A stretch of 64,000 nt of DNA, taken from contig OY757013.1 of assembly GCA_963580285.1 (NCBI GenBank), positions 135,839,027 through 135,903,026 on the forward strand. Reading direction: 5' to 3'. Source of the DNA: Lucinisca nassula. Lineage: Eukaryota; Mollusca; Bivalvia; Lucinida; Lucinidae. A model generated the notes under the pieces. The model was not told the DNA's origin, did not search any database, and saw only the letters and a program-made list of their open reading frames with translations. Positions 4,121 to 43,629 of this stretch are shown in pieces. How positions within the stretch are numbered: the stretch's first letter is position 1; every line of letters begins with the position of its first letter. A program made the translations under genes and the position numbers.

Positions 4121-5749
4121 AGGATGATGATGATGATGGTGATGAGGACGATGATGAAAAAAAGCAGATAAGAAGTATTGGAGTAAGTCTGTTGATTTCA
4201 CCTGCTATTTGATTTCGTTTGACTGATCAATTAGCAATATTTTGATATGCCTCTTTTATTCCAGACCATAATATTTTCAGATGAAACTTGGACCATAAAT
4301 GTATACTGCCAGCATTCTTAATAATAGGCAAAACGAGTTTTTAATCGTTTTTGGAAAAAAAATGCTGTTACACATTGTTTTCGGAGTTGATTTCGCACAT
4401 GTGCTTATCAGCGAAATCAATTGACAGAATATATTTTCCTAATAAATATTCATACTTTCTCGTGAAATTTGGACCTAAAATGTTTATCAATTTTCTTAAC
4501 AATATGCATTTTTATTCAGTTTTGGAAATATTTATTTTGTACATTGATTTCGCTAAATTGAATTGATTTCGCACATGTGATTTCCAGCGAAACAAGGGGC
4601 AGAATAGATTTTCCTCACAAACAACTTAGGCTACTAAACATGCAAATTTCATCATTAAACTTGACTCATAAATGTTTAACAGCATTATTAATTATATGCA
4701 CAAATATGTTTTATTCAGTTTTGGGAAATATTTATTTTATACATTGATTTCGCTAAAATGAGTTGATTTCGCACATGTGATTACCAGCGAAATCAGGTAG
4801 CAGAATACAATTTCCGATCAAATACATACTAAATATTCAAATTTTCTCATGAAACTTGGCTCATAAATGTATAATAACATTCTAGATAATATGCAATCAA
4901 AATTATTTGCCTGTTTTAAAACTGTTGATTTTATGAGTTGATTTCGCTTAATCGGGCTGATTTCGCGAAATCAACTTGATTTCACATATTATACCTACCT
5001 GAAGACAACTCATTGACACTTTTTGAAGACAACTCATTGACACATTATTATGTTGAAAATACACACACGCTGATAAAATGAAGAAAATGTTTTGAAAATA
5101 AAATGATCTATTATCACGTTTATGTTCAAAATAATGAATTTAGAATATATTAATTTAATATTTTGGCTTATTGGTACAATTAAGAGACCATATTAACCGC
5201 ATAGGATTGCTGGCGTAAATAAACTTACACATTCTATTTTGAAAACATGATATAAAAGAAAATGTACAGGGACATATATTATTCAAAACTTTCATAATTA
5301 AAATAAAAAAAGATGGAAAGTGAAGCTTTTATATGAGTTTTTAAACTGTCTGCCTGTCCGCCCGCCCATCCGCCCATACATATGTATCAGGCCTCATATA
5401 TTTCAGGCTTTATGACCCATCTTCTTTCTTATGAATGTTTTCATTGCTCTTAAAGGAACTCATTTTTGATTTTTATTTGCCTTCACTGCAGCTGTGCCGT
5501 GTGGCGGCCGTAAAACGTCTCCCCGTACATCAACCATAGTGCAGTTTCTATTTTACTTTTGGTCCTTTGAGATCAGCGTGAATATTCTGAGAAATCGGAA
5601 ATAAATTATTGGTTTAGGCTCATATTCTAGACAGGTTTGTAATTATTTGGACCCCATTTTGATTTATATCAGTCTTTGAATCGACTGCCTATTTGAAATT
5701 CGCAACATTGCAGTATGTTTCCTCTGGCTTTCTTTGCCGGATCATTACA

Positions 5750-5795
5750 GGGTCACTGATGAGGCTTTATTAGCCGAAACTACGTAGTATGACCC
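5750..5795 (+). ncRNA. Hammerhead ribozyme 1
   Basis: The 5' strand of stem I is GGGTCA (5750-5755). Then come core CTGATGA, stem II GGCT/AGCC with loop TTATT, core GAAA, a short stem III (CT..AG around ACGT), and the cleavage triplet GTA ending at 5789. The 3' strand of stem I is TGACCC (5790-5795), perfectly complementary to GGGTCA. All conserved catalytic-core bases are present. Stem III has only 2-3 bp; such ribozymes are known to work best as dimers, and here the next copy lies 383 nt away. Confidence 0.85.
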
Positions 5796-6132
5796 ATCTT
5801 CTTTCTTATGAATGTTTTCATTGCTCTTAAAGGAACTCATTTTTGATTTTTATTTGCCTTCACTGCAGCTGGTGTTGTGCCGTGTGGCGGCCGTAAAACG
5901 TCTCCCCGTACATCAACCATAGTGCAGTTTATATTTTACTTTTGGTCCTTTGAGATCAGCGTGAATATTCTGAGAAATCGGAAATAAATTATTGGTTTAG
6001 GCTCATATTCTAGACAGGTTTGTAATTATTTGGACCCCATTTTGATTTATATCAGTCTTTGAATCGACTGCCTATTCGAAATTCGCAACATTGCAGTATG
6101 TTTCCTCTGGCTTTCTTTGCCGGATCATTACA

Positions 6133-6178
6133 GGGTCACTGATGAGGCTTTATTAGCCGAAACTACGTAGTATGACCC
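6133..6178 (+). ncRNA. Hammerhead ribozyme 2
   Basis: The core, stems and loops are identical to ribozyme 1. Stem I is GGGTCA (6133-6138) with TGACCC (6173-6178), and predicted cleavage follows the A at 6172. Spacing from ribozyme 1 is 383 nt, one repeat unit. Confidence 0.85.
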
Positions 6179-6234
6179 ATCTTCTTTCTTATGAATGTTT
6201 TCATTGCTCTTAAAGGAACTCATTTTTGATTTTT

Positions 6235-6999
6235 ATGCCCCCGGAATCTAAGATTCTGGGGGGCATATAGTTTTTGGTCTGTTTGTCCGTTTGTCTGTTT
6301 GTCCGTTTGTCCGTCTGCAAAAACTTTAACATTGGGCATAACTTTTGAATGGTAAGTGGTACAGCTTTCATACTTCACATGTGCATTCCTTGTCACAAGA
6401 CCTTTCAAGAGGTACCATAAATTTTGACCTCGTGACCTTCACCTTGAGATTTGACCTACTTTTGACCTCCTTTTTAAAAACTTCAACATTGGCTATAACT
6501 TTTGATTAGTAACTGATAGAGCTTTAATATTTCACATGTGCATTCCTTTTCGCAAGACCTTTCTATTGGTACTATAATTTTTGACCTCGTGACCTTGAGA
6601 TTTGACCTACTTTTGACCTCCTTTTTAAAAACTTTAACATTGGCTATATCTTTTGATTGGTAACTGATAGAGCTTTCATATTTCACATGTGCATTCCTTG
6701 TCACAAGCCCTTTCTATTGGTACTATAATTTTATAGTTTTTGGTCTGTTTGTCCGTTTGTCTGTTTGTCCGTTTGTCTGTCTACAAAAACCTTAACATTG
6801 GGCATAACTTTTGAATGGTAATAGATAGAGCTTTCATATTTCACATGTGTATACCTTATCACAAGACCTTTCCAGTGGTACCATAATTTTTGATGTCTTG
6901 ACCTTGAACTTGACCTTTGACCTATTTTTTTCAAAATTTTTAAAAACATTAACATTGGCGCTGTCCGGGGGCATCAGTGTTTCACAAACACATCTTGTT
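6235..6999 (+). mobile_element. HCR element, ATGCCCCC family, copy 1
   Basis: The left hairpin is ATGCCCCCGGAATC / GATTCTGGGGGGCAT (6235-6266), followed by a GTCCGTTTGTC block (6285-6315). Four monomers of about 150-165 bp then share AACTTTAACATTGGC and TTTCACATGTG. The right end repeats CCGGGGGCAT (6965-6974) and adds a second hairpin, GTGTTT/AAACAC (6977-6991), ending CATCTTGTT. There is no ORF of note. Its left border abuts the hammerhead repeat and its right border abuts another HCR. Confidence 0.65.
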
Positions 7000-7000
7000 A

Positions 7001-8352
7001 TTATGCCCCCAACTTTAAAAAAGTTGGGGGGCATATTGCTTCTGGCTTGTCCGTACACACAAATGGATAGATAGGTGGCTATGAACTTGGACAGAATCAA
7101 TGTAAGTCAATGAGAGAAAGTGCGATTTATTCCGTTAGACACATAAAAGGTCTGTTATGTGGTTAAAATTAGCCACCTAAGTATCAATCTTGCTCAAAAT
7201 AGCCACATAAGTATCCATTTGTGAGAACAACCGTCCGTTCGTCCGTTCGTACGTCACGCTTTCTTGTGCATAGCATATCTTTAGAACCGTGTATGCTAGT
7301 GTTTTGAAATTTCATATATGGGTTCCTCATGAAAAAATAGTTGACCCGTATTTTTTTTCTTGTCCAAATTATCTCCCCTTCTTGAATTATTTCCCCTTTA
7401 ATTAAATAACATAGAATTCTCATTAGCAAGATATCTCAAAAAGTATTTGAGCTACAGCCTTGATATTTGGTATAGTGATTGGGACTAAGGAGGAGATTAC
7501 CTGATTAAATTTTCAACCAATTCTATAAAATTTTGTTAGAGTTATGGCCCTTTGTAATTTTTTGCCACTCAATTGTGTTGCTTTCTGGTGCATAGCATAT
7601 CTTTAGAACCGTGTATGCTAGTGTTTTGAAATTTCATATATGGGTTCCTCATGAAAAAATAGTTGACCCGTATTTTTTTTCTTGTCCAAATTATCTCCCC
7701 TTCTTGAATTATTTCCCCTTTAATTAAATAACATAGAATTCTCGTTAGCAAGATATCTCAAAAAGTATTTGAGCTACAGCCTTGATATTTGGTATAGTGA
7801 TTGGGACTAAGGAGGAGACTACCTGATTAAATTTTCAACCAATTCGATAAAATTTTGTTAGAGTTATGGCCCTTTGTAATTTTTTGCTACTCAATTGTGT
7901 TGCTTTCTGGTGCATAGCATATCTTCAGAACCGTGTATGCTAGTGTTTTGAAATTTCATATATGAGTTCCTCATGAAAAAATAGTTGACCCGTATTTTTT
8001 TTCTTGTCCAAATTATCTCCCCTTCTTGAATTATTTCCCCTTTAATTAAAAAACATAGAATTCTCGTTAGCAAGATATCTCAAAAAGTATTTAAGCTACA
8101 GCCCTGATACATGGTATAGTGATTGGGACTAAGGAGGAGACTACCTGATTAAAGTTTCAACCAATTCTATAAAATTTTGTTAAAGTTATGGCCCTTTATA
8201 ATTTTTTGCCTCTCAATTGTGTTTCTTTCTGGTTCTTCTAAAATTTCAGCATTGCAGCCAAATAAAAAAAAGATATCTCAATTACTGTTAGGGACAAGCA
8301 GTGTTAGGGTCAAGCAGTTGGGGGCATTGTGTTTCATAAACACTGGCTCTAG
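7001..8352 (+). mobile_element. HCR element with 13-bp left hairpin and 322-bp monomers
   Basis: The left hairpin is ATGCCCCCAACTT / AAGTTGGGGGGCAT (7003-7034). A CCGTCCGTTCGTCC block lies at 7231-7255. The core has three 322-bp monomers. The right end has GTTGGGGGCAT, then GTGTTT/AAACAC (8329-8343) and TGGCTCTAG. It has the same architecture as the ATGCCCCC copy just upstream, but an unrelated core. Confidence 0.65.
7259..8224. repeat. Three tandem 322-bp monomers
   Basis: The units are 7259-7580, 7581-7902 and 7903-8224, each opening CTTTCTKGTGCATAGCATAT and differing at only a few positions. Each contains the same short - strand ORF of about 58 codons. That ORF is copied with the monomer and looks like no known protein, so it is not called as a gene. 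Confidence 0.8.
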
Positions 8353-11941: not shown

Positions 11942-12200
11942 TGTAGCAGGTCGACCGTGTGGCTCGGTAGCTCAGTCGGAAGAGTGTTCCCACGGTATGC
12001 GAAAGGCCATGGGTTCGAGTCCCGGTCGAGTCATGTTCTTTTTCCACCCCCGTGACATTTGGTGGCCAGTGTGGGTCCTGCACCGCGTCTGAGGGCATGA
12101 AAGAGTATGAAAATAAGTCTCGCAGCCGGACTGGATAAGAGATTCAGGACGAATCTCATGAAAAGAGATTCGGGACAAATCTAATTAAGCAGGGGGAAAA
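11942..12200 (+). mobile_element. S7 tRNA-like SINE, copy 1
   Basis: It opens TGTAGCAGGTCGACCGTG. A-box-like TAGCTCAGTCGGAAGAG and B-box GGTTCGAGTCCC follow, then a tail of about 160 bp. The anticodon-arm strands are TTCCC and GCGAA, which do not pair well. Confidence 0.6.
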
Positions 12201-12316
12201 TGTAGCAGGTCGACCGTGTGGCTCGGTAGCTCAGTCGATAGAGTGTTCGCACGGTATGCGAAAGGCCCTGGGTTCGAGTCCCGGTCGAGTCATGTTCTTT
12301 TTCCACCCCTGTGACA
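12201..12316 (+). mobile_element. S7 tRNA-like SINE, copy 2
   Basis: This is a direct repeat of the previous copy at a 259-bp offset, truncated after CACCCCTGTGACAG. Here the anticodon arm pairs perfectly (TTCGC/GCGAA around ACGGTAT). The loop lacks the usual T33, so it is read as a tRNA-derived SINE head rather than a working tRNA. Confidence 0.6.
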
Positions 12317-14421: not shown

Positions 14422-16784
14422 AGCTCACCTAGGCACGAAGTGCTCAAGGTGAGCTTTTGGGATCGGTCTTTGTCCGTCGTCTGTGCGTCCGTCGTCAACT
14501 TTTGCTTTTAACAACTTCTTCTCCAAAACTGCTGGACAGATTTTGATCTAATTTCACAGGAATGCTCCTTAGGTGATCCTCTACCAAAATTGCTCAAACT
14601 GTTCCGCTTGGGTGAAAAAGACGGCTGCCAGTGCTAAAACTAGAAAAACCTTTAAACGACTTCTCCTGCTTAACCAGTGGATGGATTTTGAAATTATTTC
14701 ACAGGAATGTTCCTTGGATGACATTCTACCAAAATTGCTCAAACCGTTCTGCTCGGGTGAATAAAATGGCCACCAGAGCTAAAAATAGAAAAACCTTTAA
14801 ACAACTTCTCCTTAACCAATGGATGGATTTTGAAATTATTGCACAGGAATGTTCCTTGGGTGCCCCTCTACTAAAATTGCTCAAACCCTTCGGCTCGGAT
14901 GAACGAAATGGCCGCCAGAGCAAAAAATAGAAAAACCTTTAAAGGTCTTCTTCTCCTTAACCAGTGAATAGATTTCAGAATTACTTCACAGGAATGTTCC
15001 TTGGGTGACCCTCTACCAAAATTGCTCATACCGTTCCGCTCGGGTGAACAAGATGGCCACCAGAGCTAAAAATAGAAAAACCTTTAAACGACTTCTTCTC
15101 CTTAACTAGTGGATGGATTTTGAAATTACTTCACAGGAATGTTCCTTGGGTGACCCTCTACCAAAATTGCTCAAACCGTTCAGCTCGGGTGAACAAGATT
15201 GCCGCCAGAGCTAAAAATAGAATAATCTTTAAACAACCTTTTCTCCTAAACTGATGGATGGATTTTGAAATTATTTCACTGGAATGTTCCTTGGGTGACC
15301 CTCTACAGAAATTGCTCAAACCGTTCCGCTCGGGTGAACAAAATGGCCGCCAGAGCTAAAAATAGAAAAACCTTTAAACGACTTCTCCTTGACCAGTGGA
15401 TGGATTTTGAAATTATTGCACAGAAATTTTCCTTGGGTGCCCCTCTACTAAAATTGCTCATACCGTTCCGCTAGGGTGAACAAAATGGCCACCATAGCTA
15501 CAAATAGAAAAACCTTTAAACGATTTCTTCTCCTTAACCTGTTGATGGATTTTGAAATTACTTCACAGGAATGTTCCTTGGATGACCTTCTACCAAAATT
15601 GCTCAAACCGTTCCGCTCGGGTGAACAAGATGGCCACCAGAGCTAAAAATAGTATAACCTTAAAACGACTTTTTCTCCTTAACCAGTGGATGGATTTTGG
15701 AATTATTTCACAGGAATGTTCGTTTGGTGACCCTCTACTAAAATTGCTCATACTGTTCCGCCTGGGTGAACAAAATGGCAACCAGAGCTTCTGCTTAACC
15801 AGTAGATGGATTAATAGCCCTGGGGCCAAAAACGGCCCCGCCCTCGGGGCCCACTGGTTTAACATAGGCTTATATAGGGAAAACCTTTAAAAATCTTCTT
15901 GTCTGAATTCAGAAGGCCCAGGTCTTTGATATTTGCTATGTAGCTTCATCTAGTGGACCGCTACCAAGATTGTTCAAATTCTAGCCCTGGTGCCAAAAAC
16001 AGCTCCATCCCGGGGCCCACTGGTTTTACATAGGCTTATATATGGAAAACCTTTAAAAATCTTCTTGTCTGAAACCAGAAGACCCAGGTCTTTAATATTT
16101 GGTATGAAGCTTCACCTAGTGGACCTCTGCCAAGATTATTCAAATTATAGGCCTGGGGCCTAAACCGGCCCGCCCCGGGGCCCACTGGTTTTACATACGT
16201 TTATTTTGGGAAAACCCTTAAAAATCTTCTTGTCTGAAACCAGAAGGCCCAGGTCTTTGATATTTGATAAGTAGCTTTGTCAAATGGACCGCTACCAAGA
16301 TTGTTCAAATTATAGCCCTGGGGCCAAAAACGCCCCCGTGCCAGGGCCCACTGGTTTTACATAGGCTTTTATAGGGAAAACCATTAAAAATCTTGTCTGA
16401 AATCAGAAGGCCCGGGTTTTTGATATTTGGTATAAAGCGTCATTTAGTGAACCTCTACCAAGATTGTTCAAATTATAGCCCTGGGACCAAAATGTCGCCG
16501 CCCAGAGACCCTTTGGTTTTACATAGACTTATAAAGGGAAATTTTTAAAAATCTGCTTCTCTGAAACTGCAAGGCCCAGGTCTTTGATATTTGGTATGAT
16601 AGCTTCATCTAGTGGACCTCTACCAAGATTGTTCAAATTATAGCCCTGGGGCCACAAATGCCCCCACCCCGGGGCCCTTTGCCAAAGTTTGGTTCTACAT
16701 AGACTTATATAGCCCTGGTGCATAGGCTTCGAAATCGCAAAATTGCAGTATGTTTCCTCTTGCTTTCTTTGCCGGATCATTGCA

Positions 16785-16830
16785 GGGTCACTGATGAGGC
16801 TTTATTAGCCGAAACTACGTAGTATGGCCC
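16785..16830 (+). ncRNA. Hammerhead ribozyme 3
   Basis: GGGTCA (16785-16790) is followed by CTGATGA, stem II GGCT/AGCC, GAAA, short stem III and GTA, with cleavage after 16824. The 3' strand of stem I is TGGCCC instead of TGACCC. That base change turns a U-A pair into a U-G wobble, so pairing is kept. Confidence 0.85.
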
Positions 16831-17164
16831 ATCTACTTTCTTATGAATGTTTTCATTGCTCTTAAAGGAACTCATTTTTGATTTTTATTTGCCTTCACTG
16901 CAGCTGGTGTTGTGCCGTGTGGCGGCGGTAAAACGTCTCCCCGTACATCAACCATAGTGCAGTTTATATTTTACTTTTGTTCCTTTTAGATCATCGTGAA
17001 TATTCTGAGAAATCAGAAATAAATTATTGGTTTAGACTCAATCTAGACAGGTTTTTAATTATTTGGACCCCATTTTGATTTTTATCAGTCTTTGAATCGA
17101 CTGCCTATTCGAAATCGCAAAATTGCAGTATGTTTCCTCTGGCTTTCTTTGCCGGATCATTGCA

Positions 17165-17210
17165 GGGTCACTGATGAGGCTTTATTAGCCGAAACTACGT
17201 AGTATGGCCC
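17165..17210 (+). ncRNA. Hammerhead ribozyme 4
   Basis: It is identical in core and stems to ribozyme 3, with GGGTCA (17165-17170), TGGCCC (17205-17210) and cleavage after 17204. It lies one 380-bp unit downstream. Confidence 0.85.
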
Positions 17211-17994
17211 ATCTACTTTCTTATGAATGTTTTCATTGCTCTTAAAGGAACTCATTTTTGATTTTTATTATGAAGGGAATATCTTTATAAAAAATCTTCT
17301 TCTCTTAAACCTCAAGGCTCAGGTCTTTGATATTTGGTGTGTAGCTTCATCTAGTGGACCTTTGCCAAGATTGTTCAAATTATAGCCTTTGTTGATGTTT
17401 GGTATGAGACCCTTTGGTTTTACCTAGACTTATAAAGGGAAATTTTTAAAAATCTGCTTCTCTGAAACTGCAAGGCCCAGGTCTTTGATATTTGGTATGA
17501 TAGCTTCATCTAGTGGACCTCTACCAAGATTGTTCAAATTATAGCCCTGGGGCCACAAATGCCCCCACCCCGGGGCCCTTTGCCAAAGTTTGGTTTTACA
17601 TAGACTTATATAGCCCTGGTGCATAGGCTTATGAAGGGAATATCTTTATAAAAAATCTTCTTCTCTTAAACCGCAAGGCTCAGGTCTTTGATATTTGGTA
17701 TGTAGCTTCATCTAGTGGACCTTTGCCAAGATTGTTCAAATTATAGCCTTTGTTGATGTTTGGTATGAAGCTTCACCTTTAAGACCTCCCTCAACATTAT
17801 GCACATTAAAGCCCTTGAGCCAATAATAGCCCTGCCTGGGGCCCACTTGTAACACTACGGATCAGGTGAGCGATCCAGGGCCAGCATGGCCCTCTTGTTC
17901 TTGTTTCAACGAGTGTGTGTTATTTTTTTTTTTTCGCTATGGGGATAAGGACCCGTTTCTCATGCTCTTTTTCAACGCTTCGATGCCTCAGCAT

Positions 17995-20619: not shown

Positions 20620-23600
20620 GTAAGTACAGTTATAAATTTACATGATGATTCTTACACATCTAGCATTGTAGCAGAGTCAGCCTTCTGACTTCTAGTCCAG
20701 GGGGTACCAGGTCAAATTGAAGCCAAACACATATATGTAGCTTATAATTGTGAACAGAAATCACTGAAGGCAATTTATACAGCAGTTTATCACATGACGT
20801 CGCGTCTGAGAGTGTTTTTACGCCATGCAATAAATTCGATAATCCATTAGTGGATTAAATATGCAGATTAGTTACACGCATGACGTTCTTAATGACGTCG
20901 TGTTTAGTAATGGCGGGATATAGACATTTCTGCTAAAATCGCGAATAAAATGCGTTTTAAATGTCATATGATAAATAGAATCTTGCATTCGTGGTCATAT
21001 TTTATTGAATTTATTAAACTAATTGAAGAAAAGGCATACAATGCTCGGCAAACCCTCACATTTTATTCCTTTTCCTCAACTCGTTTAGTAAATTGAATTT
21101 ATTAAACTCGTTGAAGAAAAGGCATAAAATGTTCCGTAAAGCCTCTCATTTTATTATACCCCCACAAATGAAATTTGGGGGGTATATAGAGGTGAGCTTG
21201 TTGGTCGGTCGGTCGGTCGGTCTGTTGACTTGGTTTCCAGACGATAACTCAAAAAAGCGCTTCACCGATTTTTATAATTTTTGGTACATTGATGTAACAT
21301 CATAAAATACAGGTCAAGTTCGATTTCCACTACAATTCGTTAATTTTCGACATAGTTATGGCCCCTTTCAAGTGAAAAAATTGCAAAATGCCGCTGTTGT
21401 ACTATCAAGGCAGTTTTTGTGGGGGTATTCATCACCTTTAGTGATAGCTCTAGATTAGAAAGAGTGTCTCCTCGTTTAGCTCAAACTTAGCTAATCGTTA
21501 ATCTGAGGCGGGCAAAAATGGGAATAGCCGGAGAAAAGCCACCACACCATCCACTGCACAACTGGGGATCTCTCAGTCCTGTGATCCAATCTGCCTCCAA
21601 AGTGGAAGTAAAACAAAGATCAGGAATCGATACAATTAACTTACTCCACCCATCAAAGACACCAAAGGGAAAGAACCACAAATATGAAGCGACCAGACCA
21701 TAATGGAAACCTAAACAAAGAATGACCATAAGGACAGTTACTTTCCCACAAAATGGCCAAATGGCCACACAAAATAAAAAGACACAAGTGATACACACAG
21801 TAAGTAGTAACAAACAACTACATAAACCGCCACAGAAGAACCGCCTTGGAACGGTCAGTGGAAAGAAGTCCACTGGGGATCTTAAATCGATTTTACATGG
21901 CCATAATCCTCGCCCTTACCTCTGTCGCGATATACACTAATTTTGTTTAGTCTGCATGAAGGCTTCCTAACTCATCAGTGTAACATTTCCGAGAACATAC
22001 AAATCAAAAAACTACAGAGATGAAACAAGGTTGAGGACTCGACAACATACAACAACAGAATTGCTAGAGCAAAAGAAAACCAACAGTTAGACTCCAATCC
22101 CAGCCAAGAAGGGCATACTTGGTCTGTCAGCAAGAATTGAAAAAGAAGCAGGACTGTAGACCCTACCTATTAATAAATATAGCAATTAAAAGCAAAGTGG
22201 GATGAAAACTCACCCTGTTTTACTTGTCGATAAATTTTACCCTAAGGGTGGAACTGAAATTTACTCTTTTTTATTGTTTTTTTTTTTCATATGCTGTATG
22301 TAAGATAACGAGATTCTTCATAAACCAAAATGATAGTTGAATCAGTATATAAGGTCAAGATCTTTGAAAGTTGCTTAGTTGCTTGAGGGAAAACATGGTT
22401 TCCATAAGTAAATTGTTCTTTTATCAAATCCCCTGTTTTTATTCAAAACAAGGAGAAAATTGTCTTTTGGGCAGAGCCCCCCAAATAGCATACTGGTTGA
22501 TTTCTTTGATTTAAGGTTTAACGTTCCCGTCAACACTGTATGAGGTCATTTTGGAGACGTTGCTTCCAGTTTTGTGGAACCTTTACCCGACATCGAGATG
22601 AAATGAAATCACAAGCCCTGTCGTCCAATTAACCTAATAGGGTTTAACTTGGAGTCTAACTGTTGGTTTCCTTATGCTCCTGTCCTCAACCTTGTTTCAT
22701 CGCTGTAATTTTTGATTTGTATGTTCTCGGAGATGTTACACTCACACCGTACAACCGGCTGCGTCGAAGACAGATTACTGTCTCTAAGACAGATCACGGA
22801 AAACGTTTCATAGAAAGGGTAGGTGAAGTTTTTTTGTTTGTATAAATCGAGAAGGCAATTTGTTGACTATTGCTGCTACTGGAGAAGAAGCTAAATGCCT
22901 GGAGATACCGCAGCAACATTCTGACTATATTTCAAAGCCAGATAAGGCTTTTCCAGTTCGTTGAAAAATATTTTCATCGAAAATTTTATGAATTTTTGTT
23001 TTCGGCGTCAAGTGTACGTCTACGGAACAAAATATGTTACATTCACTTACTCATGCTAAAACTTCGATTATTCAGCAGCATTTCTGCCAAATTAGACCGT
23101 ATAACTCGGTTAAATAAACAAACTACGCCCCCCTAAAGAGACCAGGTGTCCAAAAAAATGCTGTCTCTAACTACAGATTGTTTTTTATACGACTGTCCCC
23201 AAACACAGATCAGAGATATCGAAGGCTAACATTGATGACAGATCAGAATTTCGGTCACATCTTCAATAAAGACGAATTCTGGATGACTTAACACCGGCAA
23301 CTTCAATGGAAGCTATTTCATGCCAGCTCCAGGGCTTTACTTGTTATAATGCTGCAATTGAGTAACATAGAGGCTGCTCTATGATCTTTTATATTTCCTG
23401 TCAACACACAAATTGTGCATCAGTAGAAGCCTCCGTGGTGTAGTGGTTTTGCTACTTGCCTTGTAAACCAGGATTCGCGGGATCGATCCCGGGCTTCTCC
23501 AGACTTTCGGATGTGTCTTTAAACCCAGGTCCCGTCTCCTTAGGTGACCTTAGCTGTTAGTGAGATGTACAACTCTCTCTCTTTCACGCTCAATATCTGG

Positions 23601-26164: not shown

Positions 26165-29100
26165 GTACGTCTCACTAACAGCTAAGGTCACCTAAGGAGA
26201 CGGGACCTCGGTTTAAAGACACATCCGAAAGTCTGGAGAAGCCCGGGATCGATCCCGCGAATCCTGGTAGTACTACACCTGGTTTACAAGGCAAGTAGCA
26301 TGACCACTACATCACGGAGGCTTCTACTGATTGCACCATTTGTGTGTTGACGGGAAATATAAATGATCATAGAGCAGCCTCTATGTTACTCAATTGCAGC
26401 ATTATTACAAGTAATGCCCTGGAGCTAGCATGAAATAGATTCCACCGAAGTTATCGGTGTTAAGTCATCCAGAATTCGTCTTTATTGAAGGTGTAACCGA
26501 AATCGTGTGATCTGTCATCAATGTTAGCCTTCGAAATCTCTGATCTGTGTTAGTGGACAGTCGTATAAAAAACAATCTGTAGTTAGAGACAGCATTTTTT
26601 TGGACACCTGGTCTCATTAGGGTGGCATAGTTCGTTTATTTAACCGAGTTATACGGTCCAATTTGGCAGAAAAGCTGCTGAATAATCGAAGTTTTAGCAT
26701 GAGTAAGTGAATGTAACATATTTTGTTCCATAGACGCCAAAAACAAAAATTCATAAAATTTTCGATGAAAATATTTTTCAACGAACTGGAAAAGCCTTAT
26801 CTGTCTTTAAAATATAGTCAGAATTTTGCTGCGGTATCTCCAGACATTTAGTTTCTTCTCCAATAGCAGCAAATGTCAACAGATTGCCTTCTCGATTTAT
26901 ACAAACAAAAAAACTTCACCTACCCTTTCTATGAAATGTTTTCCGCGATCTGTCTTAGAGACAGTAATCTGTCTTCGACGCAGCCGGTTGTACGGTGTGT
27001 ACACTGATGAGTTAGGAAGCCTTCATGCAGACTAAACAAAATTAGTGTATACCGCAACAGAGGTAAGGGCGAGGATTATGGCCATGTAAAATCGATTTAA
27101 GCCCCCCCCCCCCCCCAGTGGAATTCTTTTCACTGACCGCTCCAAGGCGGTTCTTCTGTGGTGGTTTATTTATGTTGTTGTTTGTTACTTACTGTGTGTA
27201 TCACTTGTGTCTTTTTATTTTGGATGGCCATTTTGCCTTCCTTTGTTTAGGTTTCCATAATGGTCTGGTTGCTTCATGTTTGTGTTTCTTTCCCTTTGGT
27301 GTCTTTGATGGGTGGAGTAAGTTAACTGTATCGATTCCTGATCTTTGTTTTACTTCTACTTTTTATATGCATGGGCGGTCCAGGCTCGCATCACCTTTCC
27401 TGGGCATGTTTAGAACCCCTAAGCAGTTTACCAGTACTCCATGTGTGGTTGGTTTCAGCTCTGCGTGGAAGCATCATGCAGCCCATATATTTCTTCAAGC
27501 CCCGATGGGTGGGGGCGGACATACTGGTTGAGACCTTGTTATAAATCATACTGATGCAGATAATTACATGCAATGATTTTCTACATGAAAATTTTGAAAA
27601 GCTCTTTCTTCTTTTTCAGGAAATATTTTATAAATGAAGGTGCATTGAAAGAACATTTTAAAGGCAAACCTCATAAAAGAAGGTGAGTTTGTTAATAGTA
27701 TCTATAATTATATCCATTGTAATACGGGTCTCAGTGGCCCAGTTGGTAAGAATGCTGACTCGTAATGGTTCAAGCCTCACTTGGGTTACATGTGAGACGT
27801 CAAGTACTGCAACCGAAGGTGAAGTGGCTTTTCCCTAGGTGCTCCAATTTTCGACCAGATCGAAATTAGTGAAATAATCTTTAAAAGCCCATAAAACCAA
27901 CTAAAGCACAGAAGTTGCTCAACCATGATATTTACTGCGACAGAGCTGGGGCTGCTGAACATTACTGTATTCATTCTCTGTATGTACAGTAACATTCCTA
28001 TATTAAGACCACCTGTGGGATTGTTCAAAAGTGGTCCTATAGACCACTTTTGAACAGTCCCCAAAGTGGTACCTGACCATAGGACATTATTTGCAGAAAA
28101 CACGAAGAAAGAACAACTGCAACATTCTAAATAATTTTTAAAGCAAAACTTGTCTTAATTTTTTGTGGTCTTAATAGCGGAGTTTCACTGTAGGGACCAT
28201 CTCAGAATGCCTGTCTTTTTTTAAATATATTAACATGTATCTAGATAGAAAAAATCAAGAGCATAGTAAGTAAAGTTCTCATTTGTAAACTATGGACCTG
28301 TATTTTAATCATGGTGGAAACAGGATAAAAACTACTTTCACAAATTGTGTAGCAACATTAAATGAAGAACTTTCCAATGTCTCAATACCGTAATGATCGT
28401 AAGTATTTGGACAGACAGGCCTAATCAAACAGTGCAAACCCAGATCAGTCTGCTCCTCAGGATCAGTGTCTACACCTTTTGTCATCCTGCCTCCTCATTT
28501 TGAATTCTATACTGGATCATGAAACAAATTTGTTAAAATTATAGGAAAATTACAGCTGATGCTCAAGGTGTCCGATTTTTTAGGATTTTTACGGTATGTG
28601 CAAATCAAGTTAACAAGCCTTTTTAATGAATGTGTAGGGAAACATTGGGGTTTATATTACAGAGGTATACAGTTTGCTAAGAAACCATTGTGGTTACACA
28701 GTTAGCTGGTTCTTAGGTACATCCACAATCTCTGTTTGGAACAGAAATAAGGAAATATCAGAAATTGTCATAAGAAAAATATCAAAATTGCTCTGTCACT
28801 ATGTCACATCACATTAACAAGTCCATACAGTTGCACCCCGCTAAACCCCACTTTATACAGAGAAAACTTGGGTTAATGAGGGTATTCATTATTATACCCC
28901 ACCACACAATAGAAGTGGGGTATTTTGATATACCTTTTGGTGTCCGTCCATCTGTCCGCACCATTTCTGATCAATAACTTTTCACATATATTTTCTTTTC
29001 AAATTTTGCATACAAATTTATACCGGCGATGAGTGTTTTGAGATTGTTGATGTGCAAAATCAATCAATTTTCGACAGAGTTTGGTCCCTTTTCAATGTCA

Positions 29101-32100
29101 TATATCGTCGTTCGGGAGTCAAAACCTCTTAACTCAAGTTTTTCAACTTTTCAGGAGAGGCGATTTTCTTCTTTTTTTTTGAATAAAAAAGCATGTTTCT
29201 TCTTATTTTCTGGACTCCATTCAAAAATTTCTTCCAGCAAAGGAGAATTACAAATACCCCTTCAATATTCAACATATAAGTTGTTGATTGTGTCATTTCA
29301 GAGACCTAGATTTTTGGATGTTTATGGAGGTACGAGTTTCTGACGATTATTTTATCATATTATGCATGAGTTACATCCTTTTGATATTTTTGTTGACTGT
29401 ATTATTTAGATCTCCAGTATTTTAATTGAATTGATCTCTGTTTTATTTAATTTCTTACGGAATTGCCCACTGGCCATCAAAATCTCAACCTCTGTCTGGA
29501 CATACTGTTCTGCTGACCACACCATACTTGAGATACGATGTTTTGAGATTCAAGTTTTACATCAATCAAGATTATGCTGAGATACGTTTTACTGTTATAT
29601 GACTTAGAGATACGCCGTTTTGAGCTAAGATGTGTCTGTGGTTCATACACCTAATGGTATCAAAATGTCATTTTACCAAAAATCAGAGTTATGAGGTTTT
29701 GACTCCCGAACGACGATATGTGCTTTTTGGGCGTTGAGTATTTCTATGGATTTACAAAGTTTGCATATACAGTGATATTGAGGATGTGTGGTTAGGGATT
29801 TTTTTATATTAGCATTATGTTCATGCCAATTTTGTCGAACTGCTGTATTGTTGCTCTATAGATTGCCTATTACCATGATTACATAACTGATTTTTATGAC
29901 AATTTATGATACTTTTCTTATTTATACTCCAAGCGTTTGGTGTGGGTCCTCGTTAGCACTGCCTCATTTTCGTGGTTAGCTCACCTGACCGAAGGCTCAT
30001 TGGTGAGCTTATAGTATGGCAATGCTCTGTTGTCTGTCATCGGTCTGTCTGTCAACATTTTCAAACATCTTCTCTGAAACCACTGGACGGGTTGAAGTCA
30101 AACTTCATGTGGAACATCCATTGGATGGGGGAACGGAAGTTTGTCCATAGGGTCATGGTCACATGACAAATGATGATCATCGGATGACCTTGACATATTT
30201 ACCCCAAAGTCGAATTTGGTCACATAGATTTTTATATGGGAAAAAAAATTAAAAGCTGATTATTTTTTGTAAACTATTGCAGCTTGTGATCTGAAAATTG
30301 GTAGCTAATTAGCTAAATGTGTGGATGAAACTACACGAGTGTTCAAGGTCAAGGTCATTCCTTGACCTTGGCCAAATGTCATATAGATATGAAAATTAAA
30401 AATTTGTTTTCCATAGCAACAATTAGGCCATTTGTAACCATAAGAAAGCGTTTAGGAACAAAGAAATGAAAATTAATTAACTTGAATTTTGTCATATGAC
30501 CAAGATGGCCGCCATGCCCATATGGCCACCATGCACATTAATGGTAAAAAAAAACATTAAAAAATCTACTTCTTCAGAAACAGTAGGCCGATTGTCATGA
30601 AACTTGTTTTGTAGCATTCGGCACTCAAGCCCATCATTGTTTGTTCAAATGATGACCCTGGGATGACCTTCACCTAGATTACGTCAAGGTAAAGTTTGGT
30701 TACATAGAGTTTTATGGGGGGGAAAAGTCAAAAGTATGTATTTTTATGCCCCCGGAATCAAACATCAGACAGTTGTTCGACTTTAGACCTCCTTTAAAAA
30801 ACTTGAACATTGGCCATAACTTTTGATTGGTGAGTGATAGGACTTTCATATTTCAAGTGTCTATTCCATGAAACAAGACCTTTCCAGTGATACCATAATT
30901 TTTGACCTCTTGACCTTGACATTTGACGTACTCTTTTTTTAAAAACTTAAACATTCGCAAAAACTTTAACATTGGGCATATATTTTGAATGGTAACTGAT
31001 ATGGCTTTCATATTTCACACGTGCAATCCTTGTCACAAGACCTTTTCTGTGGTACCATAATTTTTTATCTCGTGACCTCGGAACCCGTCCATTGGGTTAA
31101 ATATGATGGGCTGCATGATGCTTCCACGCAGAGCTGAAACCGACCCGCACACAAGTACTTGTAAACTGCTTAGAGGATCTAAGCCTGCCCAGGCAAAGCG
31201 GAGTGAGTCGGCCCGTTCATGCTTATAAACCCTTCTGATTTCATTGCGCAGCAGGGCTTGAGATGTCTTTTCTTATCTAGTGTCGGGTAAAAGTCCCACA
31301 AAATTGGAAGCAGCGTCTCCAGAATGAATTTTACATTGTTGACGGGGACGTTAAACCTCAAATCAAACAAAACAAACAAAACCTTGACCTTGACATTTCA
31401 CCTACTTTTTAGCTCACCTGAGCACGAAGTGCTCAAGGTGAGGTATTGTGATCAGTGAATGACCTTCAACCGTCGTGCGTCGTCAACAATTTTTTTTAAA
31501 TGCGAACTCCTCCTAAACCCTAGGGCCAATCTGATTCAAACTTCACAGGAATGTTGCCTGGGTGTCTCCCTACCATAATAGCTAAAATCGTTCCACTCCC
31601 TGAACCAGATGACCACCAGAGCTAAAAATAGAAACAATCTTTAAACGCTTACTCCTGTATACTTGGGCCAATTTCATTCAAACTTCAATAGCCTGTTGCT
31701 TGGATGACTGTCAACCAAAATAGCTAAAACAGTTCGGCTACGATGAGTAAAATTGCCGTCAGAGCTAAAAATAGAAAAAAAAACAGCCTAAATTTGCTTT
31801 AAACACAAACTCCTCCTAAGCCCTTGGGCCAATTGGATTCAAACTTCACAGGAATGTTGACTAGTTGACTCCCTACCAAAATAGCTAAAATCATTCCACT
31901 GTGATGAACAAGATGGCCGCCAGAGCTAAAAGTAGAACAAATCTTCCAACAACAACTCCTGTACCCCTAGGCCAATTTCATTTAAACTTCATAGCAATGT
32001 TGCTTAGATGACCCTCTACCAAACTTGCTAAAACGATCCCGGTCTGATGAACATTTATGACCATCAGAGCTAAAAATAGGAAAACATCTTAAATTAGCTT

Positions 32101-35048
32101 CAAATGCGAACTCCTCCAAAACCCTTGGGCCAGTTTGATTCAAACTTTATAGGAATGTTGCCTAGGTGACTGCCTACCAAAATAGCTAAAACCGACAAAC
32201 AAGATGGCCACCAGAGCTAAAAATATAAAAAAAATCTTTAAACCACAACTCCTCCTTACCCTTGGGCGAATTTCATTCAAACGTCATAGGAATGTTTCTT
32301 AGGTGACCCTCTACCAAAATTGCTAAAACAGTTCTGCTCTGATGGGCAGAAATGGCCGCCAAAGTTAAAAATAGAAAAACATTGTAAATTTGCTTCAAAA
32401 GCAAACTCCTCTTTAACCCTTGGGTCAGTTTGATTCAAAGCACAGGAAAGTTATGGAGGTGGCGAGTCAAAATACCAAAATAGATAAACTCATTCTGCTC
32501 TGCTGAACAAGATGGCCCCCTGAGCCAAAAATAGAAAAAAATCTTCAAACTGCAACTCCGCCTGTACCCTTGGACCAATATCATTCAAACTTCATTGGAA
32601 TGTTGCACAGATGACCCTCTACCAAAATAGCTAAAACGATCCCGCCCTGATGAACAGAATGGCCGCCAGAGCTAACAATAGAAAAACATCATAAATTTGC
32701 TTCAGACGCAACCTTCTCCTTAACTGTGGGGCCAATTTGATTCAAACTTCACAGGAATGTTAAGTAGGTGACTCCCTACCAAAAAAACCTAAAATAGTTC
32801 TGCTCTGACGAACAAGATGGCCCCCAGAGCCCAAAATAGAAAAAATCTTCAATTGAAGTTTCCTCCTTTACCATTTGACCAGTATCATTCAAACTTCATA
32901 GGAATCTTGCACAGATGACCCTCTACCAAAATAGCTAAAACGATCCCGCCCTGTTGAATAAAATGGGCGCCAGAGCTAAAAATAGAAAAAAAAACATAGT
33001 AAATTTTCTCCAAACGCCAACTTCTCCTAAACCCTTGGTGATTCAGACTTCACAGGAAAATATGCCTACGTGACTCCCTACAAAAGAAAGCTAAAATCAG
33101 TCTGCTCTGATGAACAAGATGGCCGCCAGAGCTAAGAATTGAAAAAATCTTCAACCGACAACTCCTCCTGTACCCTTGGGCCAAATTCATTCAAACTTAA
33201 AACGTAAGAATGTGGCTTAGATGACCCTCTACCAAAATAGCTCAAGCGATCCCGCTGCGATGAACAATATGGCCACCAGAGCAAAAATAGAAAAACATTG
33301 TATATTTGCTTCAAACACAAACTCCTTCGCCCCCACCCATTGGGGCTTGAAGAAATAGATGGGCTGCATGATACATCCATACAGAGTTGAATCCGACCCG
33401 CACATGAGTACTGTTAAACAGCTGAGAGGATCTAAGCCTGCCCAGCCAAGCTGTGCGAGTAGGACCGTCCATGCTTAAAAAAACTTTGGTATCATTGGGC
33501 GACAGGGCTTGAGATATCATTTCATCTCAATGTCGGGTAAAAGTCCCACAAAACTGTAAGCAAGGTCTCAAAAATGACCTATGCAGTGTTGACGGGGAGG
33601 TTAAATTTCAAATCAAACAAACAAATCAGACACACACTCCTTCTAAACCCTTGGGCCAATTTGATTCAAACTTGTCAGGAATGTTGCCTATGTGACACAA
33701 TACCAAAATATCTAAGATTGGTCAGCTGTGATGAGCAAGATGGCCAACAGAGCTAAAAATAGAATGTACTAGAGACAGTGACATTCAGCTGAGCGAATCA
33801 GGGCCCAGAGGGGCCCTCTTGTTAAAAATTTTAACATTGGCCATAACTTTCGATTGGTAAATGATAGAGCTTTCATGTTTGCATTCCTTATCAAAAGGCC
33901 TTTCTAGTGGTACCAAATTTTTTTAACCTCCTGACCTTGACCTTTGCGTTTGACCTACTTTTTAAAAACTCTAACATTGTCCATAACTTTCGATTGGTAA
34001 GTGATAGTGCTTCCATATTTCACATGTGCATTCTTTTTCACAAGACCTTTCCAGTGGTAAAATATTTTTTTTTTGACCTCGTGACCTTTAACCTACTTTT
34101 TAAAAACTTTAACATTGGCCATAGCTTTCGATTGGTAAGAGATTGGGCTTTCATATTTCACATGTGCATTCTATGTCAAAAGACCTTTCCAGCGATCCCA
34201 TAATTAGTGACCTTGACCTACTTTTTGAAGACTTTAATATTGGCCATACCGTTCGATTGATAAGTGATACTGCTTTCATATTTAACATGCGCTGTTCTGG
34301 GGCATCTGTGTTTCACAAACACATCTTCATAAACTATTGCAGCCTGTGATCTGAACATTGGTGTATGCAGTACGCTTAATGAGTGGATGAAACTGCATGA
34401 GTATTCAAGGTCAATGTCAATCTTTGACCTTGGCCCAAGGTTATTCAGTTGTGAGAAATTAAAATGTATTAACCGCCGAAACCACTGGGCCATTTGTAAC
34501 CAAATTTCATATGAACGTTTTTAGGAACAAGAAAATGAAAATTAATTAATTGGTCTCATGATAAATATGGCTGCCATGCCCATGTAAGGCAAAGACCCTT
34601 CCGAAATATTCTTTCCAGAACCAGTTGGTGGATTAACATGAAACTTGGCATGTAGCATTGGGGACTCTAGCTAAAAGTATTATAGATATATAGATTGTGA
34701 GTACTCGTTAGAATCACCTCAATGAGGCGCTTCTAACGTGTACCCACAATCTACATTTTGAGTAGAAATAAGAAGCTATCACAATTTACCTTTAAAAAAA
34801 ACTTTCATTTTTGGTGGCAAAATTTACAATGTATTTGTACAGGCGTGTTTTCATAATGCTTACTGGTGCTTAATCTAGAGCTGTGGTAATTGTTTGACAT
34901 TTGTTTTCCCAGAATAAAAGCATTACAGATAGAGCCCTACAGTCAAGCAGAGGCAGAAAGAGCAGCTGGGATGGGATCTTATGTTGCCCCTAAGACAGTA
35001 CATGTAAAAACACAGTCCTCAAACAATATGGACCTGGCAGATGGATGA
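20426..35048 (+). CDS. ZNF593: ZNF593/Bud20-type ribosome-biogenesis zinc-finger protein (3 coding exons)
   Basis: Joining exons 20426-20619, 27620-27682 and 34913-35048 gives a 130-aa ORF with a TGA stop at 35046-35048. Both introns are phase 2 with GT-AG borders. The protein has a basic N-terminus ([14 protein letters not shown]), the [11 protein letters not shown] block (28-38), a U1-type C2H2 finger (C61-X2-C64-X12-H77-X5-H83) and the conserved [12 protein letters not shown] block near residues 102-113. These are the hallmarks of vertebrate ZNF593 and yeast Bud20, which bind pre-60S ribosomal particles and help their nuclear export. The length matches the family. All variable sequence is in the introns, which hold only mobile elements. 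No frameshift or missing zinc ligand is seen, so the gene looks functional. Confidence 0.9.
21004..21143 (+). repeat. Direct repeat of about 50 bp, 89 bp apart
   Basis: TTGAATTTATTAAACT followed by TTGAAGAAAAGGCATA occurs at 21004-21054 and again at 21093-21143 with a few mismatches. It immediately precedes the HCR at 21155. Confidence 0.6.
21155..21453 (+). mobile_element. Short HCR element, TATACCCCC family (300 bp)
   Basis: The left hairpin is TATACCCCC...AAT / ATTTGGGGGGTATA (21155-21186). A GGTCGGTCGGTCGGTC block follows at 21202-21222, then a single core. The right end repeats GGGGGTAT and adds hairpin ATCAC/GTGAT (21431-21445) and AGCTCTAG. It is the smallest complete example of the architecture here, with no tandem core. 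Confidence 0.65.
21978..22743. mobile_element. Fold-back element inserted in the left arm
   Basis: The inverted ends are about 61 bp (21978-22038 and 22682-22743), opening GTGTAACATYTCCGAGAACA. The right arm of the inverted duplication has the empty site at about 26992-27006. An S1 SINE in - orientation (22503-22645) lies inside. No ORF of note is present. Confidence 0.7.
22503..22645 (-). mobile_element. S1 SINE, 3' half
   Basis: On the - strand it ends GTTGACGGGAACGTTAAACC plus TTAAATCAAAG. The part upstream of GGGCGACAGGGC is missing. Confidence 0.6.
23425..23600 (+). mobile_element. S4 SINE
   Basis: The head GCCTCCGTGGTGTAGTGG has B box GGGATCGATCCCGGG. The body is CTTCTCCAGACTTTCGGATG, then CCTTAGCTGTTAGTGAGATG, ending in a CT-rich run. 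Its inverse partner in the right arm is 26152-26330, so this SINE predates the inverted duplication. Confidence 0.7.
23865..24191 (-). mobile_element. S5 SINE, nearly full length
   Basis: On the - strand the head is GGCCCCGATAGCTCAGTTGG (24191-24172) with B box GGGTTCAATCCCGGG. The body runs through GTGTGGTATCATGTAATGTG to a tail ending AACGTCGACGTTAAACCC-like sequence near 23880. It is absent from the right arm of the inverted duplication, so it is younger. Confidence 0.7.
24246..24481. mobile_element. K MITE, full length
   Basis: The TTAA-bounded ends are CCAATTCAGTACCAG and AAAAAGGG. The centre is GATCAGACACTTCAG / GGAGTCTGATC. Its mirror copy is at 25501-25724 in the right arm. Confidence 0.65.
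24597..24651. repeat. Alternating purine-pyrimidine tract
   Basis: About 55 bp of nearly uninterrupted alternation of CA/TG/CG steps (for example CATGCACGCATGCGCGCGC). It is potentially Z-DNA-forming and unstable. Confidence 0.6.
24652..24940 (+). mobile_element. S1 SINE, full length
   Basis: It runs from GCCCCTGCCCATCGGGGCTC through GGGCTGCATAATGCTTCCAT to GGGACGTTAAACCTCAAATC. Confidence 0.7.
25170..25475. repeat. P-related palindromic repeat near the centre of the inverted duplication
   Basis: It contains AAAATTGTGACATTTTTCTT and TACTCCAAACATATGTTGAG, variants of P-family arms, and the inverse CCACAG-type stretch. It separates the two arms and is degenerate. Confidence 0.35.
25727..26012 (+). 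mobile_element. S1 SINE, full length
   Basis: It opens CACCCCCGCCAATAGGGGC, continues GGGCTGCATGATGCTTCCA and ends GACGGGGACGTTACAAAC plus AAAC repeats. Confidence 0.75.
26152..26330 (-). mobile_element. S4 SINE with preceding (GA)n
   Basis: On the - strand the head is GCCTCCGTGATGTAGTGG (26329-26312) and the B-box region GGGATCGATCCCGGG. The tail runs into the (GA)17 tract at 26127-26161. Confidence 0.7.
27366..27530 (-). mobile_element. S1 SINE, 5' half
   Basis: On the - strand it reads CCCCCACCCATCGGGGCTTG, GGGCTGCATGATGCTTCCAC, then stops near the inverse of GGGCGGTCC. The 3' half is missing at the border of the inverted-duplication arm. Confidence 0.65.
27620..27682 (+). CDS. ZNF593: ZNF593 coding exon 2 (63 bp)
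   Basis: The acceptor CTTTTTCAG ends at 27619 and the donor AG|GTGAGT begins at 27683. It encodes [20 protein letters not shown], with zinc ligands H77 and H83. Phase 2 at both ends keeps the frame with exons 1 and 3. Confidence 0.9.
27724..27893 (+). mobile_element. S2 SINE, tail fused to the exon 1 copy
   Basis: The head is ACGGGTCTCAGTGGCCCAG, with body GTTACATGTGAGACGTC and GTGAAATAATCTTTAAAAGC. It runs directly into the pseudo-exon with no spacer. Confidence 0.6.
27894..27986 (+). pseudogene. Decayed partial copy of ZNF593 exon 1
   Basis: It matches the last half of exon 1 (20534-20627). Shared text includes AAGTTGCTC, GGGGCTGCT and AACATTA, plus the splice donor region (GTAAGT is now GTATGT). 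Changes remove the CLHC zinc-ligand motif (the copy reads CIHS). It lies after exon 2, so it is a leftover of an ancient duplication and not an alternative first exon in order. Confidence 0.7.
27987..28190. mobile_element. TA-flanked MITE (Tc1/mariner-type), 26-bp TIR
   Basis: CAGTAACATTCCTATATTAA on the left and the inverse CAGTGAAACTCCGCTATTAA on the right both continue GACCAC. TA lies at 27985-27986 and 28191-28192. An internal perfect hairpin, GTTCAAAAGTGGTC / GACCACTTTTGAAC, occurs at 28022-28055. TA TSDs and CAGT ends fit a Tc1/mariner-mobilised MITE. Confidence 0.7.
28660..28885. repeat. P-type palindromic repeat
   Basis: It contains ATCCACAATCTCTGTTTGGA and AGAAATAAGGAAATATCAG, then the distal arm ACCCCACTTTATACAGAGAA. 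It is a diverged copy. Confidence 0.4.
28895..29815 (+). mobile_element. HCR-like element, TACCCCAC family, interrupted
   Basis: The left hairpin is ATACCCCAC...AGAAGTGGGGTAT (28895-28925), with GTGTCCGTCCATCTGTCCG at about 28941. The core is split by a fold-back element (29099-29723). The right end was not found, so the element is probably truncated. Confidence 0.45.
29099..29723. mobile_element. Fold-back element with about 36-bp inverted ends
   Basis: ATATCGTCGTTCGGGAGTC then AAAACCTC at the left is repeated in inverse at 29691-29720. The interior has one 104-codon open frame (29029-29343) that crosses the left border, so it is not a gene. Confidence 0.55.
31085..31381 (+). mobile_element. 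S1 SINE
   Basis: It contains GGGCTGCATGATGCTTCCAC, GGTAAAAGTCCCACAAAATT and GGGACGTTAAACCTCAAATC plus (AAAC)n. It lies inside a monomer whose text CTCGTGACCT/CCTTGACCTT continues on the two sides. Confidence 0.7.
31411..33823 (+). mobile_element. HCR element, AGCTCACC family, nested third level
   Basis: The left hairpin is AGCTCACCTGAGCAC / GTGCTCAAGGTGAG (31411-31442). The core has about 14 monomers of about 150-165 bp with CTAAAAATAGAA and AACTTCACAGGAATGTTG. The right end is GAGCGAATCAGGGCCC with hairpin AGGGCCC/GGGCCCT and ends CTTGTT. Removal rejoins the host phrase CCTACTTTTT-AAAAATTTTAAC, which exists intact in other monomers. Insertion is therefore between T and A of a T-run/A-run, with no visible TSD. 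Confidence 0.7.
33328..33627 (+). mobile_element. S1 SINE, fourth level of the nest
   Basis: It runs from CGCCCCCACCCATTGGGGC to GGGGAGGTTAAATTTCAAAT plus CAAACAAAC. It splits a monomer: ACAAACTCCTTC before and ACACACTCCTTC after. Confidence 0.7.
34688..34868. repeat. P-type palindromic repeat just before exon 3
   Basis: TAGATTGTGAGTACTCGTTA pairs with the inverse TAACGTGTACCCACAATCTA. The arm AGAAATAAGAAGCTATCACA then follows. It ends about 45 nt before the exon 3 start and so overlaps the region expected to hold the branch point. Confidence 0.55.
34913..35048 (+). CDS. ZNF593: ZNF593 coding exon 3 (terminal)
   Basis: The acceptor TTTGTTTTCCCAG ends at 34912. The exon encodes [20 protein letters not shown] and the acidic/polar C-terminus, ending NMDLADG and TGA. 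The [20 protein letters not shown] block is the conserved ZNF593 C-terminal signature. Confidence 0.9.
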
Positions 35049-43490: not shown

Positions 43491-43629
43491 CCACCTTTAA
43501 TGGCTTAAGATGTCTATTTTCAGCCTCATCATCAGCATAGCTCTTGCACTTTTCTGAAGCTAATATATGTAGGTTGGGAATAAAAGATTGCATGAGTTCT
43601 GAAATGAGTTTGAAAATAGAAGTGAATGC

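Follow-up and report, generated by a model that had tools for sequence, protein, structure and literature searches.

The tandem repeat at positions 5411-6236 of the window, the whole stretch of 64,000 nucleotides that was analysed, is a metazoan non-LTR retrozyme, an element of an already known kind, and its family is real and very abundant. The informative end of the retrozyme arrays is the 3′ end, which lies about 65 nt past the cut of the ribozyme. This array is probably a dispersed copy made by a Penelope-type reverse transcriptase that was primed at the target and began at an internal point of a circular RNA template.

The retrozyme arrays and their hammerhead

The array, referred to here as W1, lies on the + strand and was assigned a period of 383, a copy number of 2.2 and 98% matches over 5411-6236 by Tandem Repeats Finder. 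It is made up of a 377-bp copy (5413-5789, +) that starts at the position after a cleavage site, a 383-bp copy (5790-6172, +) that serves as the reference unit and 64 bp of a third copy (6173-6236, +), the terminal tail, which ends in ...TTTTTGATTTTTAT. This bears out the tandem repeat with complete hammerheads that the initial annotation had placed at this locus. Positions in the unit are counted from the base directly after the predicted cut, u1, to u383, and the 3′ end of W1 is at u64. A second array, W2, with 1.4 units (u286 to u65) is found at 16728-17269 (+), where the host site is a tandem repeat, and its terminal tail (17205-17269, +) has the same 3′ end as that of W1. The 2-kb bins containing the retrozyme array have a GC content of 0.34-0.36, under the 50% that bounds metazoan retrozymes, and the array overlaps no frame of at least 120 aa counted from stop to stop. 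The period of the ribozyme is equal to that of the tandem repeat, 383 bp, inside the range of about 150-450 bp of metazoan retrozymes. Inverted repeats, TATGCCCCC...GGGGGGCATA, are present at 6230-6262 and 6996-7040 of the window, apparently as the end of another element, and one of them adjoins the 3′ end of W1.

Both ribozymes of W1 are type I hammerheads (5750-5795 and 6133-6178, both +) with predicted cuts at 5789/5790 and 6172/6173. By reading, their layout is GGGTCA-CTGATGA-GGCT-TTATT-AGCC-GAA-ACTACGTAGT-A/TGACCC, with CTGATGA, GAAA, a stem II of 4 bp, a GTA site with cleavage after it and a fully paired stem I of 6 bp (GGGTCA/TGACCC). Stem III is short, with 3-4 bp and a 4-nt loop. The core bases, the 4-bp stem II and the perfect stem I had been claimed for two consecutive units, and both the reading and a structural descriptor agree with this. 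The descriptor, which was modelled on the W1 layout after the motif had been seen, has exactly four matches in the 64-kb window, with CTGATGA at 5756, 6139, 16791 and 17171, all belonging to the 383-nt unit type. The two in W2 are at 16785-16830 (+), where the 3′ strand of stem I is TGGCCC and forms one G-U pair, and at 17165-17210 (+), with a predicted cut at 17204/17205. A chance hammerhead was rejected, the descriptor having no match in 60 dinucleotide shuffles of the window. Rfam gave no hammerhead at the gathering threshold in the window. Its weak matches, which include both ribozymes of W1, fall on the right bases, the best being to Hammerhead_3 at 20.3 bits against a cut-off of 48.5. 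The initial annotation had named the lack of a covariance-model hit above threshold as a refutation, and formally this is the result obtained; the search is, however, a weak test because the ribozyme is a minimal type I hammerhead, in which about 4 nt close stem III and stem I is left open.

With up to 3 mismatches allowed, the 2.93-Gb host genome (696 contigs) holds 30,970 matches to the 40-nt ribozyme (15,540 + 15,430) and none to the reversed control pattern. At one unit each these would amount to about 12 Mb, or 0.4% of the genome. Comparison of the W1 unit with the genome gave at least 128 matches, grouped into at least 40 arrays (the best 40 of 453 candidates scored), and the scored arrays are spread over many chromosomes. 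Two samples were taken. The first comprises the 39 arrays most similar to the window unit, and the second 40 consecutive loci on chromosome C1 with an exact match to the ribozyme, these being 40 of the first 41 loci, by our grouping, among about 100 of the 30,970 places listed, all of them exact; a mixed cluster at C1:5152208-5155002 was left out because of its size. Together with both window arrays they gave 87 arrays of at least 90 bp, of which 82 have a visible 3′ end.

Departures from the majority sequence affect 1.10% of hammerhead positions in the first sample, compared with 1.94% in the rest of the unit (p = 9e-6), and 97 of 107 units retain all 11 positions of the ribozyme core. The segment u67-u169, which is also present in two diverged families, changes as slowly as the hammerhead, at 1.02%. 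The circular fold of the unit is of moderate stability (z −2.5). Elsewhere in the window there are arrays of repeats of about 145-166 bp or of 304 bp (14505-16677, 31498-33326 and 40893-42546), some containing CTGATGAACAAGATGGCCGCC, which fits a loose hammerhead pattern and fails the structural descriptor.

The description of the element as retrozyme-like is well founded, given the type I hammerhead, the 383-bp period, the low GC content, the lack of an open reading frame, the dispersed arrays and the conserved ribozyme. The retrozyme of Mytilus galloprovincialis has a repeat of 350-390 bp and two related families (PMC7229834). It is alike in having a type I hammerhead in tandem repeats of low GC content without LTRs, and differs in number, with about 5000 ribozymes against about 31,000 here. 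Plant LTR retrozymes, according to the same source, are also non-coding and ribozyme-bearing and have circular RNA forms, which are proposed for the present family; in contrast to it they carry type III hammerheads and LTRs with a primer-binding site and polypurine tract, and make target duplications of 4 bp (PMC7229834).

Ends and target sites of the insertions

The 3′ end is fixed at u62-u72, about 65 nt past the cleavage site, in 75 of the 82 arrays in which it is visible (41/45 in the first sample and 34/37 in the C1 sample), mostly at u65 or u66, in TTTTTGATTTTTATT. Seven arrays end elsewhere, at u46 (L013), u269 (L021), u27 (L038), u382 (L045), u55 (L081), u85 (L057) and u356 (L078). The 5′ ends of the 75 complete arrays, on the other hand, range from u3 to u382 and are compatible with a uniform distribution (KS p = 0.24). 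The initial annotation had the array begin exactly at a predicted cleavage position, and for W1 this stands, its first base being 5413 or possibly 5411, at the cut or 2 nt before it. As a rule for the family a start at the cleavage site was rejected on the scatter of the 5′ ends (n = 75), which are not concentrated there, and the cleaved-RNA template that had been deduced from the start is likewise unsupported as a rule. Since the 5′ ends are scattered, W1, with its start at the cut, would seem to be a single instance out of a wide distribution. There is a slight excess of starts within u372-u383 (6/75 against 2.3 expected, p = 0.03), all of it from the similarity-selected sample (6/41, compared with 0/34 in the consecutive C1 sample). 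The inserts are 0.27 to 6.4 units long overall, the longest being L027 with 6.36 units. Those of the C1 sample vary continuously between 0.27 and 2.05 units, and 17 of its 34 complete arrays exceed one unit. At L013 (1680-2813) retrozyme pieces lie head to tail in opposite orientations and resemble the inverted repeats described for Penelope insertions.

Homologous empty sites were searched for with 75 retrozyme insertions and 14 insertions of a Naiad-like Penelope element (copies of at least 90% identity with both flanks), and were found for 29 of the former and 7 of the latter. All 7 Naiad sites and 26 of the 29 retrozyme sites could be aligned, L013, L037 and L040 being dropped as ambiguous. 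Comparison of filled and empty retrozyme sites shows anything from a 4-bp duplication to 15 bases assignable to neither flank, with most between 0 and 4. Exact repeats of at least 5 bp at both flanks are present in only 4 of the 75 insertions (L028, 14 bp; L068, 6 bp; L049 and L051, 5 bp each). In published metazoan retrozymes target duplications, if present, exceed 4 bp, whereas here they are mostly 4 bp or less (PMC7229834). Of the 26 aligned retrozyme empty sites, 18 have G at position −5, 18 have T at −1 and 16 have A at +1. In the full set of 75 retrozyme insertions, 30 have GG among the 6 nt of left flank nearest the junction, against a background of 17% (p = 2e-6), and 40 have A at +1, against 31% (p = 7e-5). 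Together these preferences suggest a weak target motif, AGGNTT^A, which closely resembles a single turn of the telomeric repeat.

An uninserted copy of the repeat entered by W2 lies at 17605-17650 (+) and provides an empty site within the window, with the junction near 17628 (GGC-TT-ATGAAGGG). Target repeats of the retrozyme are also located inside an apparent duplication further along. A tandem-repeat block is seen at 49898-49977, 55613-55692 and 61340-61419, and because it returns every 5.7 kb the last 15 kb of the window look like a large tandem duplication.

Two sister families were recognised beside the window family, RZ1. The hammerhead of RZ2 has a GTC site and its stem II is GGCC/GGCC, a double change from the GGCT/AGCC of RZ1. 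The count of pairs, made on 12 of 24 distinct ribozymes, is not independent evidence because all came from the descriptor, which demands pairing and had thus pre-selected the rows for it. In 6 of 8 terminal tails RZ2 ends at ...CTTGCTTCCAAAGGATAACCCTTTTATAGAACATATT, 87-92 nt past its own cut (L020, L045 twice, L051, L062 and L069; not L016 or L026), and in one of the L045 copies the bases after the end belong to an RZ1 insertion. RZ3, with tandem units at L019 773-1805 and L034 about 1490-2591, has a period of about 277 bp, keeps the retrozyme core and has a related tail; of its 3 terminal matches 2 end at the same point, and that in L044 stops early. Its units hold a strong hairpin, CAGACTC...GAGTCTG. 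No hammerhead was found by pattern in the L019 and L034 loci, nor by Rfam in L019, and RZ3 either carries a self-cleaving motif not known so far or is a retrozyme relative that manages without one.

The template and the mode of copying

The scattered 5′ ends, the fixed 3′ end, the short or absent target duplications and the alike units fit target-primed copying of a circular RNA. Reverse transcription of circles by LINEs or Penelope elements has been proposed by Cervera and de la Pena (PMC7229834). By analogy with the mussel and coral retrozymes, transcripts of arrays with at least two ribozymes would be cut by the hammerhead into 383-nt monomers, and a host ligase would close these into circles. 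The anatomy of the insertions suggests that a Penelope-type enzyme may then cut the target DNA near AGGNTT^A. Synthesis would be primed at a fixed position inside the circle, about 65 nt beyond the cleavage site; the reverse transcriptase would run round the circle once or several times and stop anywhere.

A cut linear monomer copied from u65 would yield only 65 nt, and longer inserts therefore need a circular or multimeric template. Units differ by 2.3% within one array, compared with 3.9% between arrays. Among 102 cases of non-CpG variants carried by at least five arrays, 55 have the variant in all units of the array and 47 lack it in some; in the shuffled control about 6 of 166, and at most 13, were in all units. 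For variants carried by 2-4 arrays the figure is 64 of 173. It is 30 of 181 for variants confined to a single array, which is what mutations of later origin should give. The likeness of units at ancestral variants speaks for a single circular template at each insertion, although a similar picture would result from homogenisation within the arrays after insertion.

Frangieh et al. propose a linear multimeric template for the anole element (PMC11167929), and linear multimeric transcripts might equally have been copied here, the ribozyme being a by-product. This would agree with the activity of the anole enzyme in vitro with ribozyme-dead RNA (PMC11167929) and with the mixing of variants in some arrays, such as L018. 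It accounts less well for the conservation of the ribozyme and for the units of an array being alike at ancestral variants beyond chance, a pattern that homogenisation could mimic, and we regard linear multimers as unlikely without setting them aside.

A SINE-like origin would explain the fixed 3′ end as the end of a linear RNA, with Pol III starting at about u67 and stopping at the T-runs TTTTTGATTTTTATTT (u51-u66). These T-runs directly precede the fixed end, starts in u60-u79 number 8 of 75 with about 3.9 expected, and the core u67-u169 is the slow-changing segment (1.02%). A stop in each unit, however, cannot give the 17 of 34 complete C1 arrays that exceed one unit or the others of up to 6.4 units, and the ends of RZ2 and RZ3 are fixed without a run of five T, which leaves such an origin quite unlikely. 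Unequal crossing-over after insertion would seem an improbable source of the arrays that exceed one unit. This would also yield alike units within an array, but the lengths in the C1 sample are continuous from 0.27 to 2.05 units and the 5′ ends fall anywhere, as a varying length of reverse transcription predicts, an argument that is less telling for the longest arrays. That the repeat is ordinary satellite DNA, immobile and with a hammerhead by descent, is suggested by the tandem arrangement and is scarcely credible given the 30,970 motifs, the scored arrays on many chromosomes, the precise 3′ junctions and the homologous empty sites for 29 of 75 insertions.

Target-primed copying of a circle from an internal start has a parallel in the anole. 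In vitro the Penelope enzyme Poseidon PAc begins reverse transcription internally, 111-118 nt into its ORF. The ribozyme cuts at +26, and the genomic ends fall on these internal starts (PMC11167929). By our arithmetic the start is 85-92 nt past the cut, against about 65 nt for RZ1 and 87-92 nt for RZ2. The two systems are alike in having a hammerhead upstream of a fixed internal start, 5′ truncation and AT-rich targets, and differ in that Poseidon PAc encodes its own enzyme whereas the retrozyme encodes nothing (PMC11167929). With their ends about 65 nt (RZ1) and 87-92 nt (RZ2) beyond the cut, the two families match the anole plan of internal initiation.

A 2020 review describes metazoan retrozyme repeats as lacking a conserved motif that points to the autonomous retrotransposon mobilising them (PMC7761336). 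The fixed 3′ junction (75/82), a similar one in the sister family and the mapped empty sites constitute a signal of this kind. The accessible part of the mussel paper gives no account of a fixed 3′ end past the cut, a target motif or empty sites (PMC7229834), and no report of this insertion anatomy, with its fixed 3′ end, was seen among the papers listed in literature searches on retrozymes and hammerhead retrotransposons. The anatomy makes two questions testable at the bench, namely which enzyme mobilises retrozymes and whether circles are the template.

The Naiad-like Penelope element as a candidate partner

An abundant element in L025 and L090, with at least 134 matches scored among 104,354 candidates, is referred to here as Naiad-like. 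Its reverse transcriptase frame is 499 aa long and matches RVT_1 at an E value of 0.1 only. Upstream in the same frame, with TGA codons between, lie two further pieces of 280 aa and 149 aa, the latter containing NMQYVGQTNRMLKTRLNEH. GIY-YIG was matched in 7 of 26 aligned rows of the 149-aa piece and its relatives (best E 0.0015), L090's own piece not being among them, and a PDB profile search with the endonuclease-like piece gave nothing useful. A putative N-terminal GIY-YIG-like piece followed by a reverse transcriptase, with in-frame TGA between, is an arrangement that the element would have in common with Naiad elements. At L090 1197-3986 the endonuclease-like and reverse transcriptase pieces form a single frame broken by TGA codons only, and at one of these TGA codons relatives seem to carry a sense codon; selenocysteine may be used here, as in Naiads. 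Two close relatives of the genome's reverse transcriptase are named in MAGs of Candidatus Thiodiazotropha, which are symbionts of lucinid clams.

Of the pieces of the Naiad-like element that end inside a stretch, 29 of 55 stop at q1866-q1877, and the 5′ ends are scattered. Three copies of its 3′ part are present in the window, at 27002-27366 (+, 5′-truncated), 21599-22098 (−) and 43610-43819 (−, diverged, 71%). Retrozymes are inserted inside the element at q165-168 (L061), q529-531 (L058), q628-631 (L009) and q973-976 (L062), and the q165-168 site is used also by Naiad copies in L010 and L015. The copy at 27002-27366 occupies a target site that is used by retrozymes elsewhere, its right flank lying within 1-2 nt of those of the retrozymes in L012, L022 and L038, while its left flank has no match to the left flanks of these three. 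Of the five right-flank pairs of retrozyme and Naiad insertions reported, four agree to within 3 nt and represent two sites, while the fifth is displaced by 33 nt, pairs being reported only if the query match began no more than 12 nt from the junction, which favours coincident ones. The preference of Naiad insertions for GG is not significant (8/23, p = 0.14). By eye there is no likeness between the Naiad 3′ end and the retrozyme tail. CTGATGA is present in the Naiad 3′ region, and a hammerhead there was rejected on inspection for want of a valid stem I or GAAA.

The Naiad-like element, which has two target sites in common with the retrozyme, is its best candidate partner, a tentative assignment. 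A wider proposal, which we put forward as a possibility with the odds somewhat against it, is that animal retrozymes are satellites of Penelope-type machinery, with a Naiad-type enzyme starting target-primed rolling reverse transcription at the internal tail (65 or 87-92 nt past the cut) at AGGNTT^A sites. If this is true, the tail would supply the signal, missing so far, by which retrozymes are tied to their partner.

A supposed fused Penelope-retrozyme copy at L071 was rejected by means of the neighbouring stretch L089, the Naiad piece lying inside a retrozyme array; it is a nested insertion because u268-u270 is found on both sides. Two GIY-YIG Penelope families (L091 and L092), from the two stretches examined of 138 listed GIY-YIG matches, were rejected as obvious partners. 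They have no CTGANGA and no retrozyme-like tail, and their resemblance to retrozymes is limited to short matches, the best with E 0.007 over 25 nt. Each has a frame of 430-490 aa and then the start of a Penelope-like ORF beside the GIY-YIG matches, which are listed as pairs that are either inverted or separated by about 4 kb. The window also contains two similar tRNA-like genes, at 11961-12033 and 12220-12292, with a spacing of 259 bp, the first scoring much lower than the second.
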